Below, one piece after another: positions 16,115 through 56,446 of a DNA stretch of 64,000 nucleotides. How positions within the stretch are numbered: the first letter of the stretch is position 1; each line of letters opens with the position of its first letter. The stretch is from Shinella sp. PSBB067. Lineage in GTDB: Bacteria; Pseudomonadota; Alphaproteobacteria; Rhizobiales; Rhizobiaceae. Made by a program: the position numbers and the translations under genes. The notes under the pieces were generated by a model. The model saw nothing but the letters and a program-made list of their open reading frames with translations, did no database searches and was not told where the DNA came from. The stretch spans positions 4,331,001-4,395,000 of the forward strand of contig NZ_CP069303.1 of assembly GCF_016839145.1 (NCBI RefSeq), written 5' to 3'.

Positions 16115-18640
16115 TTAAATGCCCCCATCGCCCATCGCCTCGGCGATCAGATCCTCCGCGGCTTCCGCCAGCAGGGAATCCTGCGCCTCGCCCGCCACCG
16201 TCTCCCTGCCGATCTCCAGCATGATCGGCACGGCGAGCGGCGAGATGCGGTCGAGCCGCCGGTGGGCGATGTGGCCCTTGATTCGCGCCAGCATATCGCC
16301 CAATCGCTGAATATCCAAAAGCCCCGCCGCCGCATCGGCGCGCGTGGCCTCCAGCAGGATATGGTCCGGCTCGTGGCTCCTGAGCACGTCGTAGATGAGG
16401 TCGGCGGAAACCGTGACCTGCCGCCCGGTCTTTTCCTTGCCCGGATGGCGCTGCTCGATCAGCCCCGCGATCACGGCGCAATTGCGGAAGGTGCGCTTCA
16501 GCATGAAGCTTTCGTCGAGCCAGGCTTCCAGATCGTCGCCCAGCATGTCCTCGTCGAAGAGGTTTTGGAGCGACGGCCGCTCGACGGCGAAGGCATGGCC
16601 GAGATCGTCCAGCGCCCAGATCGCCAGCGAATAATCGGTGGCGACGAAGCCGAGCGGCCGGCGGCCGGCGCGCTCCAGCCGGCGCGTCAGCAGCATGCCG
16701 AGCGTCTGGTGCGCCAGCCGTCCCTCGAAGGGATAGGCGACCATGTAATGCCGGCTGCCGCGCGGAAAGGTCTCGATAAGGAGTTCGTCGCGCTTCGGCA
16801 GGGCGGAGACGTCGCATTGCAGCGCGAGCCAGTCGCGCACCTGCTCGGGCAGTTCGCCCCAGCGCTGCGGATCGTCCAGCATGCTGCGCACCTGGTCGGC
16901 AAGATAGGTGGAGAGCGGGAACTTGCCGCCCGCATAGGCCGGCACCTTCGGATCGAGCGAGAAGGCCTGGGAGACGAGGCATTCGTTCTCGCGGATGCCT
17001 TCGAAGCGCAGCACCTTGCCGGAGAACAGGAAGGTGTCGCCGGGCGAAAGCATTTCGAGGAAATATTCCTCCACCTTGCCGAGCGAGGCCCCGCCGCGCC
17101 CGACCGCCCCCTTCGCGCCGCGTTTGACCATGCGCACGTTCAGCATCGGCATCTCGACGATGGTGCCGAGATTGAGGCGGTATTGCTGGGCGACCCCCGG
17201 ATTGGAGACGCGCCAGAGGCCGTCGACGGTCTTGCGGATGCGGGCATAGCGCTCGTAGGTCTTCAGCGCATAGCCGCCGGTCGCGACGAACTGCACGATC
17301 CGCCCGAATTTTTCGCGCGAAAGGCCGGTATAGGGCGAGGCGGTGGTGACTTCGGAAAACAGCGCGTCCTCGTTGAAGGGCGCGGCGCAGGCCATGCCGA
17401 GGACGTGCTGGGCGAGCACGTCGAGCGTGCCCTCGCCGACGGGGGGCGTGTCCTGCGCGCCGAGATAGTTGGCGTCGAGCGCCGCCTGGCACTCCATCAC
17501 CTCGAAACGGTTGGCCGGCACGAGGATGGCGCGGCTCGGCTCGTCCATGCGGTGGTTGGCACGGCCGATGCGCTGGGCGAGCCGCGAGGCGCCCTTCGGC
17601 GCGCCGACATGGATGACGAGATCGACATCGCCCCAGTCGATGCCGAGGTCGAGCGTCGAGGTGGCGACGACGGCGCGCAGGCGGTTCTCCGCCATGGCCT
17701 CTTCCACCTTGCGCCGCTGGCCGACATCGAGCGAGCCGTGGTGCAGGGCGATCGGCAGCGTGTCCTCGTTGATGCTCCACAGCTCCTGGAAGAGGATTTC
17801 CGCCTGGCTGCGCGTGTTGACGAAGAGCAGCGACGTCCTGTGCGCCTTGATCGCCGCATAGACCTCGGGCATCGCATATTTCGCCTGATGGCCCGACCAC
17901 GGCACCCGCTCCTCGCTTTTGAGGATGGTGATGATCGGCTTCGCCCCGCCCGGCGCGGTGACGAGCCCGGCATGGCTTTCCGCATCGGGCGACTGCGCGA
18001 CCAGCCAGCGGCGAAGGTCCATCGGCTCGGCGACGGTGGCCGAAAGACCGATGGTCCTGAGCCCCGGCGCAAGCCGGCGCAGGCGCGCGAGACCGAGCGA
18101 GAGGAGATGGCCGCGCTTGGAGGTGACGAGCGAATGCAGTTCGTCGAAGATCACGTATTTCAGATCCTTGAAGAAGCGCGGGGCCTCGCCGTTGGCGATG
18201 AGGAGGGCGACCTGTTCCGGCGTCGTCAGCAGGATGTCCGGCGGGTTGAGGCGCTGGCGCTGGCGCTTGGCCTGCGGCGTGTCGCCGGTGCGCGTCTCGA
18301 TGGTGATGGGCAGGCCCATTTCCGAGACGGGCTTCATCAGGTTGCGCTCGATATCGACGGCGAGCGCCTTGAGCGGCGAGATATAGAGCGTGTGGATGCC
18401 GGTGAAGGCGGAGCCGGGCGGGATTTTGCCGCGCTGCGCAAGGTCCGTCAGCGCCGGCAGGAAGCCGGCCAGCGTCTTGCCCGCGCCGGTGGGCGCGATC
18501 AGCAGCAGGCTTTCCCCCGCCGTGGCGCGGGCCAGGAGCTCCATCTGGTGGGCGCGCGGCTGCCAGCCCTTGGCCGCGAACCAGTCGGCGAAGGATTTGG
18601 GGAGAAGGGAAAGGCCGGCGGCGGAATCGATGATGCTCAC
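16115..18640 (-). CDS. ligase-associated DNA damage response DEXH-box helicase (Lhr-like)
   Basis: An 841-aa superfamily 2 helicase. Motif I is LLIAPTGAGKTLAGFLPAL, motif Ia includes YISPLKALAVDIERN, motif II is FDELHSL (DELH, slightly different from DEXH-canonical), motif III is GLSATVAEP, and the second RecA domain has ATSTLDLGIDWGDVDLVIHVG and QRIGRANHR. The C-terminal third (WH and Lhr-type domains) completes the usual length. Predicted to unwind DNA during repair together with PdeM, encoded next in the operon. Start MSIIDSAAGLSLLPKSF is the only plausible one. Confidence 0.92.
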   Translation of the reverse strand: MSIIDSAAGLSLLPKSFADWFAAKGWQPRAHQMELLARATAGESLLLIAPTGAGKTLAGFLPALTDLAQRGKIPPGSAFTGIHTLYISPLKALAVDIERNLMKPVSEMGLPITIETRTGDTPQAKRQRQRLNPPDILLTTPEQVALLIANGEAPRFFKDLKYVIFDELHSLVTSKRGHLLSLGLARLRRLAPGLRTIGLSATVAEPMDLRRWLVAQSPDAESHAGLVTAPGGAKPIITILKSEERVPWSGHQAKYAMPEVYAAIKAHRTSLLFVNTRSQAEILFQELWSINEDTLPIALHHGSLDVGQRRKVEEAMAENRLRAVVATSTLDLGIDWGDVDLVIHVGAPKGASRLAQRIGRANHRMDEPSRAILVPANRFEVMECQAALDANYLGAQDTPPVGEGTLDVLAQHVLGMACAAPFNEDALFSEVTTASPYTGLSREKFGRIVQFVATGGYALKTYERYARIRKTVDGLWRVSNPGVAQQYRLNLGTIVEMPMLNVRMVKRGAKGAVGRGGASLGKVEEYFLEMLSPGDTFLFSGKVLRFEGIRENECLVSQAFSLDPKVPAYAGGKFPLSTYLADQVRSMLDDPQRWGELPEQVRDWLALQCDVSALPKRDELLIETFPRGSRHYMVAYPFEGRLAHQTLGMLLTRRLERAGRRPLGFVATDYSLAIWALDDLGHAFAVERPSLQNLFDEDMLGDDLEAWLDESFMLKRTFRNCAVIAGLIEQRHPGKEKTGRQVTVSADLIYDVLRSHEPDHILLEATRADAAAGLLDIQRLGDMLARIKGHIAHRRLDRISPLAVPIMLEIGRETVAGEAQDSLLAEAAEDLIAEAMGDGGI

Positions 18641-52239: not shown

Positions 52240-52265
52240 ATGGTGCTGCTAGAGAGATTTGAACT
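52240..52265. repeat. left attachment repeat (duplicated tRNA-Thr 3' end)
   Basis: Twenty-six bases identical to 56370-56395; the match breaks at both sides. It contains the CCA end, acceptor arm and part of the T arm of tRNA-Thr on the minus strand, but the remaining tRNA is absent, so it is a fragment and not a gene. Confidence 0.9.
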
Positions 52266-52404
52266 ATAGGTACAAGTCTCGCAAGCCCTGAAAAACGGGC
52301 ATTCTCAAGGGCCAGTTCTCTTTTTCCGTAGCGTTAAACCGGAGCAGTTGCAAGCGATAGTGATTTGCCATTCTGCCCCATCACAACGCCATGGAGACCG
52401 ACCT

Positions 52405-52635
52405 ATGACCACCAATTCTTACGACGCCATCTACAAGCAGTCCGTCGCTGAAACCGTCCAGATGCTCAAGAATGCCGAGCAGGCCATCGGATGGGCCCTT
52501 GAACATCTTCCGCATCAGATGGTGGAATTCTTCACCGAATGGAAAGCCTACGAGGACGAGTACCTCTGGGCCATCAACATGACGGCCTGGGTGGAGTACG
52601 CCACGGCACCCCTTTGCGACGAAGACGCGGCGTAA
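52405..52635 (+). CDS. hypothetical protein of the tRNA-Thr element
   Basis: A 76-aa protein starting MTTNSYDAIYKQSVAETVQM, preceded by GGAGA 7 bases upstream. Predicted mostly helical, acidic, with several Trp and Tyr residues (EFFTEWKAYEDEYLWAINMTAWVEYA). No domain recognised. It is the first ORF inside the left attachment repeat. The region 52266-52404 holds a T-rich stretch but no clear promoter match. Confidence 0.6.
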   Translation: MTTNSYDAIYKQSVAETVQMLKNAEQAIGWALEHLPHQMVEFFTEWKAYEDEYLWAINMTAWVEYATAPLCDEDAA

Positions 52636-52713
52636 CGCGGCATCCGCATAAGTGAAGCTGGAGGGGCGGCAATAACCGCCGTCTCTCCCTCAATGACACA
52701 AAGGGAATGTATC

Positions 52714-53529
52714 TTGTCCAGCCCTCGTCATCATCACCTCCGTGCCCTCTTTGACTCAAACGTCTACCTCCTTTCCGTCGCTGGCCCTCTAATGCTGCCC
52801 GTTAGCTCCGTGGTGGTCTTCGCCGGATGTGCCATCTGGCAGAACCGTAACGATACCGCAGAGCCCATGTCCCTGGAGGAACTGGCAAGCCCACCGCTAT
52901 GGATGAGGCGAAGGCCCGTATTGTCGAGACCCCAGACGCCAAGATCGATCCGAGCGAAGTCCCTGGAGATGCCACAGCGGCCCGCACAGCGACAAGCGAA
53001 GCGGGAGAAGCCATCACGCCCACCAACGTCAAGGAAGCCGCCCTTGAGGTTCCTGGAGTCAAAGCGGCGGATGAAACCACCTACCACGCCACCGAGATTT
53101 CCGACGACGACTTGCGGGCGATCCTGAAGGGCTCCGTCGCCGAAGCGGAGGCAATCGCGAAGTACGGTTCCAAGGAGGCGGCGACGGAGGCCGGGCAAGT
53201 ACTCTCCCGCACCAGCAAACTCCCGTGGCAGAAACTCCGGGGAACGGAGGAGGTCCTATCCTTCGTCAACCGCTCCGCCCGCGTCCTCAAGACCCAGATG
53301 GACGACGCCAAAGGCGGAGACGTGGTGTCCGACGCCAAGGTCTCCGAGATGGTTCAGGCCCCATGAAGCCAAGACCGGAGGGGCGCTCCAGGAAACGCGA
53401 CACCGGGGCACCCTCCAGCCCCTGCTCCCGAACGCCGCCAAACGCCGCGCCTCGCGCCACTTCGATAAGGTACACCTCAAGCGAAGCTATCCGGACTCCA
53501 TCAAATCTCACTTCGATAAATCCTGTTGA
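52714..53529 (+). pseudogene. possible decayed membrane-anchored protein with two compensating frameshifts
   Basis: A TTG at 52714 preceded by AAAGGGA opens a frame with one hydrophobic segment (YLLSVAGPLMLPVSSVVVFA) and ends its coding-like part near SLEELASPP at 52893. Coding character then continues in the -1 frame from 52899 to a TGA at 53364, and the original frame resumes from about 53362 (HEAKTGGALQETRHRG) to a stop at 53527. The jumps lie near 52897 and in CCCC at 53360. It may be one broken gene of about 270 codons, or separate short genes. Confidence 0.35.
52899..53366 (+). CDS. hypothetical acidic protein, possibly the middle part of a frameshifted gene
   Basis: A 155-aa ORF starting MDEAKARIVETPDAKIDPSE. 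It is Ala/Glu/Asp/Lys-rich, likely helical, with segment EISDDDLRAILKGSVAEAEAIAKYG and a more basic SRTSKLPWQKLRGTEEVLSF. No signal or membrane span. No clear Shine-Dalgarno lies close to the ATG, which itself overlaps a coding-like membrane frame; this supports a frameshift origin. No family recognised. Confidence 0.5.
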   Translation: MDEAKARIVETPDAKIDPSEVPGDATAARTATSEAGEAITPTNVKEAALEVPGVKAADETTYHATEISDDDLRAILKGSVAEAEAIAKYGSKEAATEAGQVLSRTSKLPWQKLRGTEEVLSFVNRSARVLKTQMDDAKGGDVVSDAKVSEMVQAP

Positions 53530-53575
53530 CAACTTAAAGCGAAGCATTATTATCGAAGTTATCAAAAGCGAAGTA
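53459..53575. promoter_or_regulatory. promoter with six-copy CTTCG(A/C)T repeat array
   Basis: Copies lie at 53460-53466 and 53511-53517 (forward) and 53480-53486, 53538-53544, 53552-53558, 53567-53573 (reverse). Three are part of the longer ACTTCGATAA. A promoter TTGACA (53526-53531), 16-bp spacer, TATTAT (53548-53553) lies inside, with one repeat in the spacer and one overlapping the -10 end. It drives the 71-aa ORF and serine recombinase. It may be an operator or a recombination (res-like) site. Confidence 0.65.
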
Positions 53576-53586
53576 TGGAGCTTCTC

Positions 53587-53802
53587 ATGTCTCTCGATAT
53601 GCCCCACCACCTTCACCTCCAGACGCCCGCCTTCATGGTCCTATGTGATGGGGAGTGCGACCAGATTTGCGGAACCAAGCGGGAAGCGATGACGGAAGCC
53701 GCTGACTTGCGCAAGATGGGCTTCGATAGCGTCAAGGTGAAGGGCTTCAAGACCTGGGCAGAGGCCCATGCCTATGAGGACATGCTGAGGGAGAAGAACT
53801 AA
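53587..53802 (+). CDS. hypothetical 71-aa protein upstream of the serine recombinase
   Basis: Starts MSLDMPHHLHLQTPAFMVLC after GGAG at 53577-53580; an earlier in-frame Met at 53575 would contain that site. The C-terminal half (KREAMTEAADLRKMGFDSVKVKGFKTWAEAHAYEDML) looks like a small alpha/beta domain. No helix-turn-helix seen. Its stop overlaps the recombinase start (TAATG), so the two are co-translated. A directionality or regulatory role is possible but unproven. Confidence 0.65.
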   Translation: MSLDMPHHLHLQTPAFMVLCDGECDQICGTKREAMTEAADLRKMGFDSVKVKGFKTWAEAHAYEDMLREKN

Positions 53803-54440
53803 TGTCCAGCTACAATTTCATCCGCGCCTACCTCCGCGCCTCCACCAAAGAGCAAGACGCCTCCCGCGCCAGGGCAGACCTACAGCGGTTCGTTGATGAG
53901 CGCGGCTTGAGGATTGCCGCCTCCTATGTCGAGAACGAGAGCGGAGCATCCCTCCAGCGTCCCGAACTCTTCCGCCTCCTGTCAGATTGCCAGCCGGGGG
54001 ACGTGCTCCTGGTGGAACAAGTGGACCGCCTCAGCCGCCTCAATGCCGCCGACTGGGAGAAGCTCAAGGCGGAGATTGCTGCCAAGAGGGTCCGCGTGGT
54101 GGCCCTGGACCTCCCGACCTCCCACCAATTGATCCAGCAAGGAGGCGACGAGTTCTCCACACGAATGCTGGACGCGATTAACGGCATGATGCTCGACATG
54201 CTGGCAGCTATTGCCCGCAAGGACTACGAGGACCGCCGTAGAAGGCAGACCCAGGGCATCGAGAAGGCGAAGGCGGCAGGGGCCTACAAGGGAAGACCGG
54301 AAGACGCGGGGCGCAACGCCGCCTTGATGGACATGCTACGGAAAGGGCAGACCTGGGCGAGCATCGTGGCGGCAACTGGGGTATCGACCTCCACCCTTGC
54401 GCGACTGGCGAAGAGGATCAAGGAGGAAGCGCGGGCCTAG
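53802..54440 (+). CDS. serine recombinase (resolvase/invertase family)
   Basis: A 212-aa small serine recombinase. The catalytic Ser lies in FIRAYLRASTKEQDASRA; conserved parts are ENESGASLQRPEL, the Arg-bearing VLLVEQVDRLSRLNAADWEKL, and the E-helix region MLDMLAAIARKDYEDRRRRQTQGIEKAKAAG. The C-terminal helix-turn-helix reads MLRKGQTWASIVAATGVSTSTLARLAKR. Resolvases act at res sites often found just upstream of their gene, where this element has a repeat array. It may resolve, invert or excise DNA. Intact. Confidence 0.9.
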   Translation: MSSYNFIRAYLRASTKEQDASRARADLQRFVDERGLRIAASYVENESGASLQRPELFRLLSDCQPGDVLLVEQVDRLSRLNAADWEKLKAEIAAKRVRVVALDLPTSHQLIQQGGDEFSTRMLDAINGMMLDMLAAIARKDYEDRRRRQTQGIEKAKAAGAYKGRPEDAGRNAALMDMLRKGQTWASIVAATGVSTSTLARLAKRIKEEARA

Positions 54441-54540
54441 AACGGCCCGCAATTGGCCAGCCTCCCTCACCTGGATCAATCGTAGGGTCTTGTCCCAGGG
54501 TCCGCGACCTTAAAGCGGGGCAGCTTGTTAATCTCCCGGC

Positions 54541-56289
54541 TTAGCACCCCAGGAGGCCAGTCCCCGTAGCCCTCACGCGCATCCACCTTGGGGCGGCTCC
54601 CGAGCATGTAGTCGCGAGCCTCCTTATCCAGCCTTTCCCAGGCATCCTCCTCAGCCCCCCCCGTGAGGCCGTCGTCATGGCATGGCGGAAGGCATGATTA
54701 GAGCGCCCCAACGGCGCGGCGACGCCTAGCTCATCCCGTATCCATTCACCTACCCGCTTGTAGGATTGCTCCCACCTGGGGTTCTTGATGCGCTGGAGTG
54801 AGGCACCGGGAGGATATGGCGCATAGAACAAAGGGCCATCGCCTACGGAGCGCACGAACTCAAGGAAGCCAAGCTCCAGGAGGTGGGCGTGAAGGCCCGT
54901 CGCCCAGGCCCTACGGCTCTTGGTGCTGCCATCGTCTGGCGTGATGAGGAGATATGGGACGCCACGCTCCTCCAGGACACTCCGGCCTTGAAGTTGCGCC
55001 ACCTCTCCCGCCCGCAGTCCCGTGTAGGCCATAAGCCACGGCAACCAGAATATGGCACGTCTATGTGGCATCGACAGGCCGGACTTCTCAGACCCCTTGA
55101 ACGTGGCGGAGAGGATATCCGTCACCATCTCCCGGCTATAGTCCTTCTTCACGAAGGTGCTTGTGGTGTCGCGCCCATCCCTGATGCCGTGGGCAACGTT
55201 CTCCCCCAGGTCGAACTCCTTAACTGCATGCTCCAGGATTGCCCCGATGGCGGCTAGGTGTTTGCGATTGACAGTTGCCGGGGACAGCCCCTCCGCAATC
55301 ATCGAGTCCCGCCACTCCCGCACGTTCGCCTTAGTGACCCTGGAGGCGTCCGAATGGCCTATGAACTCCTTGAACCTACGAACCGACCCCGCATATAGCG
55401 CCAGGGTCTTTGCACTTGAGGAGGATGTGGACGCCTTGTGCTCCAGGAGGCGGAAGAGGTCGAATGGATTGGTGGCCCGCCCCTTTCGATGGGGCGTTCC
55501 GCCGGACATCTTCAAAGGCGGGACGCCCGCTTCCCAGGCCGGGGACGTATAGTCCATATCAATAAGCCGGGCCTGAAGAGCCTCTAGAGCGCGACCGGCA
55601 AAGACAGCCCCTGCCCTATCTAACTCCGCTCGACTATCCTCCGTCACCGCCAGGACGTGAGCCTCCAGGGCGCTCGACACAAGGTCGCGGCCCATTTGAT
55701 CGCGATAGGCTACAAGGACTTGCGTGAGGTAGTTGAGGAATAGGGTGCGATACGGCCCGATTTCCTTCCCACGTTCCCTGGTGATGAAATCCGGGAGCGC
55801 TGGTAGCGATGTCGCCTCAACCTCCTCCAGAAAGTCCGCCACGGGGTCTCCCATGTAAACGAAGAACGCGCCGTCCTGCTTGATGGCCATTGCCAGCCAT
55901 CCGAACGCAAAGCGGATGAACGTCATAGGTACAGGCAACGCCTTAGGATTGGCCTTGTATTGCCGCACGAACTCCAAGGCGGCATTTCCCGCGATGGCGA
56001 CTACCTGCTCATGGTCCAGGCTTACCGGGCCGAGCTTCAGCAGCGTCTGCCATTCGGCCATTCGCTTCTGATGGTCTTGTAGGCGATCCGTATAGACGCG
56101 CTCCGCGACACTTTTGGTCCGCTCGCCTAGCGATTTCAGATAGTCCTGGTTCTTGCCGACCTTCACCCCAAGCTCAATGAGTCGGCCCCGCTCATTCCAA
56201 ATCTCGGAGGGGATATAAAATCGACCCTGCCAGACCCCGGAGCCTTTACGCCTGGAGAGACCACGCATTTTCCAGCGCCTTCCGACCAT
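54541..56289 (-). CDS. tyrosine recombinase/integrase, C-terminus frameshifted at an 8-G run
   Basis: A 582-codon frame. After an unusually long N-terminal region (1-290), the core-binding domain runs about 300-390 (ALYAGSVRRFKEFIGHSDAS) and the catalytic domain from about 410. Arg (YTGLRAGEVAQLQ), Lys (GSTKSRRAW) and HxxR (SNHAFRHAMTTA) are present. The frame then reads SRGGLRRMPGK, unlike the family, and stops at 54541. Inserting one base at the C8 run (54655-54662) restores AEEDAWERLDKEARDYMLGS, then REGYGDWPPG with the expected catalytic Tyr, ending at 54476. It is either inactive, phase-variable or a sequencing indel. It lies beside tRNA-Thr as expected. Confidence 0.85.
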   Translation of the reverse strand: MVGRRWKMRGLSRRKGSGVWQGRFYIPSEIWNERGRLIELGVKVGKNQDYLKSLGERTKSVAERVYTDRLQDHQKRMAEWQTLLKLGPVSLDHEQVVAIAGNAALEFVRQYKANPKALPVPMTFIRFAFGWLAMAIKQDGAFFVYMGDPVADFLEEVEATSLPALPDFITRERGKEIGPYRTLFLNYLTQVLVAYRDQMGRDLVSSALEAHVLAVTEDSRAELDRAGAVFAGRALEALQARLIDMDYTSPAWEAGVPPLKMSGGTPHRKGRATNPFDLFRLLEHKASTSSSSAKTLALYAGSVRRFKEFIGHSDASRVTKANVREWRDSMIAEGLSPATVNRKHLAAIGAILEHAVKEFDLGENVAHGIRDGRDTTSTFVKKDYSREMVTDILSATFKGSEKSGLSMPHRRAIFWLPWLMAYTGLRAGEVAQLQGRSVLEERGVPYLLITPDDGSTKSRRAWATGLHAHLLELGFLEFVRSVGDGPLFYAPYPPGASLQRIKNPRWEQSYKRVGEWIRDELGVAAPLGRSNHAFRHAMTTASRGGLRRMPGKGWIRRLATTCSGAAPRWMRVRATGTGLLGC

Positions 56290-56370
56290 TACACATCACC
56301 ATTCCATAGCAGTCCAGGTTGCGGAAAGCCATTGAGAATGCTATGTTCTTGACGTTACAGGAAAAGAAAA

Positions 56371-56446
56371 TGGTGCTGCTAGAGAGATTTGAACTCTCGG
56401 CCTCTCCCTTACCAAGGGAGTGCTCTACCCCTGAGCTATAGCAGCA
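56371..56446 (-). tRNA. tRNA-Thr (GGT)
   Basis: A 76-nt gene with acceptor arms TGCTGCT and AGCAGCA, D arm AGCTCAGGGGTAGAGC, anticodon stem CTCCC/GGGAG with loop TTGGTAA (anticodon GGT), T loop TTCAAAT and encoded CCA. It forms the right boundary of the integrated element and its 3' 26 bases are duplicated at 52240. Confidence 0.95.

Follow-up and report, generated by a model that had tools for sequence, protein, structure and literature searches.

A 4.1-kb insert in a Shinella tRNA-Thr gene, a probable remnant of a satellite-like integrative element

Described satellites and the insert at tRNA-Thr(GGT)

Phage satellites described so far are 7-20 kb long and carry integrase, regulation and replication genes (PMC13376191). 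Here we describe a 4.1-kb insert in the tRNA-Thr(GGT) gene of Shinella sp. PSBB067, located in a stretch of 64,000 nucleotides of contig NZ_CP069303.1 (the window), together with its larger relatives (the elements). Like the phage satellites and PICMI of PMC10803314, the elements are small, bounded by attachment (att) repeats and equipped with an integrase and a replication gene, and they have no head genes. The replication gene of PICMI is a primase, whereas that of the elements encodes a predicted compact family-A-like polymerase; the elements further differ from PICMI by the serine recombinase that all of them have, by podophage entry genes in a subset and by their hosts in the Hyphomicrobiales. 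The Pseudomonas satellite AH14b, of 16.8 kb, uses the capsids of a larger prophage for its packaging (PMC4936722). By description, AH14b shares with the elements a replication gene of its own and the lack of any terminase found; it is set apart, also by description, in that this gene is a primase and that its account mentions neither an internal virion protein nor a serine recombinase. PhiGT1-like prophages of Rhizobiales are temperate podophages that encode tubeB and internal virion proteins, and PMC10386132 looked for them as insertions of ~40 kb next to tRNA genes; unlike the elements they are complete phages, and that paper makes no mention of satellites. The open-access PMC literature yielded no description of a tRNA-borne family that combines an integrase, a serine recombinase and a compact polymerase.

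The insert spans positions 52240-56395 and is bounded by a direct repeat of 26 bp whose two copies are identical. A repeat search and ARAGORN agreed on the exact duplication of the tRNA 3' end that an earlier sequence-only reading had reported, and ARAGORN placed no other tRNA-Thr gene in the 64-kb window. A 28-bp duplication of the same tRNA end also occurs in an independent element (L108, see below). Chance does not explain an exact match of 26 bp that falls on a tRNA 3' end, and the anatomy shows integration at the tRNA. The earlier description of an integrated element in tRNA-Thr(GGT) is therefore upheld by the att repeats, as are the integrase adjoining the intact tRNA, by the gene positions, and the presence of both a tyrosine integrase and a serine recombinase, by matches to phrog_1 and Pfam Resolvase.

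A search for the same gene order at tRNA-Thr(GGT) or other tRNA genes, which the sequence-only reading had proposed, revealed collinear elements at tRNA-Thr (L108) and at tRNA-Val (G012). In G012, a genome of the same genus, the element measures 16.0 kb, sits in tRNA-Val(TAC) and is flanked by a 23-bp repeat. Its genes encode, in order, an ORF1-like protein (148 aa; ORF, open reading frame), a winged-helix regulator (125 aa), a 1173-aa protein, a lysin-like protein of 985 aa, proteins of 217, 199 and 434 aa, cargo, the serine recombinase, further cargo and the integrase. The product of 1173 aa is identified as an internal virion protein by its match to phrog_6651 and, among the 20 records listed, by 24-29% identity to podophage internal virion protein D. 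This protein occurs in 18 of 394 family genomes, the window fragment counted. L108 (Rhizobiales bacterium isolate AFS098815) is a complete element at the same tRNA-Thr(GGT), its repeats lying 17.0 kb apart. The order there is ORF1-like, regulator, virion protein, P217, P199, polymerase, cargo, recombinase, cargo, integrase and tRNA, which is the window order with the missing part in place. Another tRNA-Val copy within the genus (G019, 23-bp repeat) is interrupted by insertion-sequence genes (L043:4155-12165) that we take to be of IS3 and IS66 type.

Aligned with this order, the regulator sequence of the window stops at residue 57 (52890), and the virion protein sequence starts at residue 246 (52899) and ends at residue 400 (53360); the recombinase leader begins at 53355, directly at the latter breakpoint. 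Missing are the remainder of both genes and everything between virion protein and recombinase. Judged by this comparison, two internal deletions account for the loss: the regulator is cut short, the greater part of the virion protein is gone, and so is every gene between it and the recombinase, including the polymerase. In addition, the integrase ORF as first called (54541-56289) is broken: the conserved C-terminal portion lies in another frame (54661-54485), and a run of C residues marks the frame break near 54660. The insert thus shares with its relatives the tRNA 3'-end insertion with direct repeats and the serine recombinase, and lacks both an integrase with an intact frame and the compact polymerase, whose place is deleted. 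No polymerase was found elsewhere in its own genome either, by a search that had no known positive and whose empty answer shows little.

The collinear order in L044 and L108 and the breakpoints inside two proteins show the insert to be a deletion derivative of a ~16-17-kb element. It is likely a relic of the family and not a working member, and we regard it as the probable remnant of a satellite-like integrative element for which we infer packaging by a helper. With the polymerase gone and the integrase frame broken, the window copy is probably fixed unless helped in trans. The sequence-only reading had named a minimal mobilizable unit as one possibility. For a working unit of this kind the exact att repeats and the complete serine recombinase frame could be adduced; the gene fragments, the broken integrase frame and the failure to find a polymerase in the whole genome (in the search just mentioned) make such a unit highly improbable. 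Its other suggestion, a satellite, survives as the best description of the lineage, the present copy being itself a decayed relic. Likewise, the insert indeed has no visible replication or defence gene, but this reflects deletion of the stretch in which relatives carry the polymerase and defence-like cargo. None of the small ORFs (ORF1, the 71-aa ORF and two overlapping ORFs between them) has a convincing family match in the Pfam and PHROGs-type searches of window proteins; the overlapping two proved, by comparison with G012, to be gene fragments. The ORF1 copy of G019 has 12 homologues, five of them likewise of 76 aa. A small insert with two recombinases can therefore be a fossil, whose meaning emerges only through its intact relatives.

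Features of the insert and its integration site (window positions)
Feature	Position	Strand	Basis
Left att repeat, copy of tRNA-Thr(GGT) 3' end	52240..52265		exact 26-bp repeat
ORF1, 76 aa	52405..52635	+	homologue at same end of G012 and G019 elements
Winged-helix regulator fragment, residues 7-57 of the 125-aa G012 protein	52738..52890	+	sequence comparison
Internal virion protein fragment, residues 246-400 of 1173, 78% identity	52899..53360	+	sequence comparison
Six recombinase-like half-sites, inverted and direct, overlapping TTGACA/TATTAT hexamers	53459..53573	.	presumed resolution site and promoter
71-aa ORF, stop overlapping recombinase start	53587..53802	+	ORF list
Serine recombinase, 212 aa	53802..54440	+	Pfam Resolvase, E 7.1e-24
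Tyrosine integrase, C-terminal part in a different frame	54485..54661	-	75% to G370 integrase over 59 residues
Tyrosine integrase, in-frame main part	54655..56289	-	phrog_1; 42% to G370 integrase
Right att repeat, within intact tRNA	56370..56395		exact 26-bp repeat
tRNA-Thr(GGT), integration site	56371..56445	minus	ARAGORN

The DNA rightwards from tRNA-Thr is present in 21 of 21 genus genomes, the window genome counted. The sequence-only reading had asked whether the left repeat belongs to a conserved host locus and whether related strains keep the same 4.1 kb. The whole insert was found in none of the 20 other genus genomes; seven gave partial matches, none at tRNA-Thr. The two strongest matches of the left-hand gene, in G017 and G011, lie on contigs other than those bearing their tRNA-Thr. 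Past tRNA-Thr, the nine of the 20 other members that were read gave no clear match to the element end or to the left flank of the window (local alignment scores 6-9 and 6-11), and the exact empty site was not recovered among them. From the flank mismatch and the location of the left-hand gene matches, the region beyond tRNA-Thr is thus variable within the genus, and the left repeat does not belong to a conserved host locus. Partial copies of tRNA-Thr(GGT) tens of kb from the intact gene were seen in two other genus members (G019:C1:241708-241766 and 248982-249009; G002:C22:776416-776463), which suggests other insertions at tRNA-Thr.

A family of tRNA-bounded elements

Sixteen tRNA-bounded relatives of 8-18 kb were collected with the compact polymerase as the search criterion, and all 16 hold this predicted family-A-like polymerase, a serine recombinase and a tyrosine integrase. 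They are spread over many genera and nine tRNA species. Of 33 loci, 15 had a tRNA repeat and 13 were used, L125 and L132, with units of 7.1 and 2.7 kb, being left out; where the repeat has 16-17 bp (L113, L114, L119, L135), the evidence is weaker than for repeats of 18-30 bp. The family was reached only through the polymerase alignment. The window integrase alone, used as a query, retrieved nothing in genome contigs or viral contigs; among the 394 family genomes it hit 141, for the most part at distant integrases. The G012 virion protein likewise retrieved nothing from viral contigs. Among named homologues, the one nearest to the G012 polymerase belongs to Shinella sp. (92%); metagenome contigs of 14-17 kb encode the polymerase as well.

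The elements contain 205 ORFs of at least 100 aa. Forty-three core ORFs were set aside, 145 of the remaining 162 were scanned and 102 of these 145 were scanned again, the family scans covering ORFs of at least 115 aa. Several relatives bear defence-like cargo, candidates by sequence similarity: PADLOC candidates include AriA (25 of 182 families listed), and the Pfam families include Abi_alpha, CAP12/TIR, DUF4062, AbiJ, FRG and DarT, among others. The relatives thereby mark tRNA genes where defence-like cargo may travel in this bacterial order.

The Pfam families listed for ORFs of at least 115 aa (25 of 37, and all 18 in the repeat scan) include neither AlpA-type regulators nor P4-like, PICI or PICMI primases, nor a relaxase, no search dedicated to transfer origins having been made. 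The relaxase missing from these lists bears on an alternative in which the intact relatives are phage-independent, plasmid-like integrative vehicles or defence-island carriers, moved by conjugation in trans, transformation or generalised transduction, with the window insert as a relic of one. A polymerase of their own and a resolvase-type recombinase make the elements resemble plasmids. Recombinases close to that of the window are frequent on plasmids, element DNA matching 1444 plasmid records (the 20 listed all at the recombinase), and 10 of the 16 elements have no virion protein. A subset of the elements, however, carries phage entry genes, for which a plasmid would have no use, and taken with the lack of a relaxase among the families listed this leaves the plasmid-like alternative rather unlikely.

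Genes shared with T7-like prophages

Two larger T7-like prophages, in G155 and G030, lie beside tRNA-Leu genes; the ends of the former showed no tRNA repeat and those of the latter only a reversed 21-bp match. By Pfam, the G155 prophage encodes a T7-type terminase, a head-tail connector, a full family-A DNA polymerase, a T7-type primase-helicase and a nozzle protein. A 787-aa protein without a family call is presumably its RNA polymerase, which it resembles. Homologues of the regulator, internal virion protein, lysin and nozzle protein of these temperate prophages occur in the elements. Of 82 minus-strand ORFs of at least 120 aa in the two prophages, 10 match an element: two regulators, two virion proteins, three lysins, two nozzle proteins and one weak match in a frame overlapping a lysin. 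Direct comparison with the prophage ORFs showed that the T7-type terminase, connector or portal, DNA polymerase, primase-helicase and presumed RNA polymerase occur in none of the 16 elements. As a control, the terminase, connector, DNA polymerase and primase-helicase recur at 39-65% in the G030, G162 and G089 loci; the presumed RNA polymerase recurs solely in G030, at 57%. Conversely, the compact polymerase and the recombinase of the elements have no match among the prophage ORFs.

No terminase, portal or capsid was among the PHROGs families for the 145 scanned proteins (25 of 51 listed) or for the 102 scanned again (all 24), the internal virion protein being the sole head or packaging family among those listed. 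The general terminase family phrog_2 gave matches in all 16 genomes, at 29 places. Twenty-four of these places, in 12 genomes, were fetched and none lies in an element locus; the other five, in G000, G012, G241 and G370, lie elsewhere by coordinates, leaving the family in none of the 15 elements checked (the L119 genome was left out). Since phrog_2 fails to pick up the T7-type terminases at the four prophage loci (G155, G030, G162, G089), the direct comparison is the decisive one. The prophage comparison and the PHROGs lists together indicate that some family members carry a particular selection of entry genes; head genes were seen in none. The 16 relatives are in this respect satellite-like, without head and packaging genes of their own.

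That the insert and its relatives are instead T7-like temperate prophages stripped of head and replication genes, their shared set being a chance of decay, is improbable. The homologous regulator, virion protein, lysin and nozzle genes would be expected of such remnants, and decay is evident in the window copy, in the virion protein gene of G370, which is in pieces, and in the G019 copy broken by insertion sequences. Chance decay, however, fits poorly with an integrase, a serine recombinase and a compact polymerase kept in 16 att-bounded elements across many genera and nine tRNA species, with the lack of prophage counterparts for polymerase and recombinase, and with 10 elements devoid of any virion protein.

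We give even odds to a broader reading, in which the intact relatives form a Hyphomicrobiales-wide phage-satellite family with its own polymerase, one branch carrying its own injection proteins in T7-like particles and the cargo defending the host, the window insert being a fossil of it. On the reading that we hold probable, that of a remnant of a satellite-like element, the intact form would most likely work as follows. The tyrosine integrase would insert and excise the circle at a tRNA 3' end, the compact polymerase with two small neighbouring proteins would copy it, and the serine recombinase would resolve multimers. The element would spread within particles of a T7-like temperate podophage, to which one branch may bring its own version of the phage injection proteins and a regulator related to that of the phage; the cargo would protect its bearer from other phages. 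The window copy, with its two internal deletions and broken integrase frame, is probably immobile. If true, satellites with their own ejection proteins and polymerase would represent a new mode of phage parasitism, and testable helpers in rhizobia would be indicated.

Several points weigh against these readings of the insert and its family. The virion protein occurs in six of the 16 elements, the lysin in three and the nozzle protein in one, so these genes do not argue for a T7-like helper in every element; the regulator of the T7-like prophages occurs in two, with two more weak matches. Viral contigs gave one family member only, and headless entry genes could be prophage leftovers. The L108 and window integrases share no more than 39% identity, L108 being by these comparisons a distant relative. 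The integrase frame break at the C run could be a sequencing error, a question of which the deletions are independent.

The serine recombinase and its putative site

The window recombinase is 97% identical to that of L107 and 72-77% identical to those of G370, G241, L109 and L110. Resolvases with a self-regulated site usually have it built as half-sites around promoter hexamers. Thirty CTTCG[AC]T half-sites occur in the window, six of them within 53460-53573; elsewhere there are at most two per 120 bp. L107 shows the 51/27/14/15 spacing again and L119 its 27/14 part, and G241 and G370 keep the two outer half-sites, 107 bases apart, the same total as in the window. The cluster is absent before the recombinases of L044, L043, L108, L109, L110 and L134 (six of 13 loci, among them the two closest collinear relatives), and the L108 recombinase belongs to another subgroup (92% to that of G012), so that a resolution site is unsupported family-wide. 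The role of multimer resolver thus has some support for the window subgroup and would extend to other members by analogy.

In L107 one recombinase subsite is present twice, 1.2 kb apart (16533-16569 and 17765-17801), and the recombinase might swap the segment between them. Two genus members carry, near tRNA-Ala(GGC), a recombinase with 85% DNA identity to that of the window and a similar upstream region (L045:10478-11187, L046:8163-8901); no tRNA repeat was found at these loci. About 130 kb away from the element, its genome encodes another serine recombinase that is only distantly related (34% identity; G000:C2:4253143-4253589).
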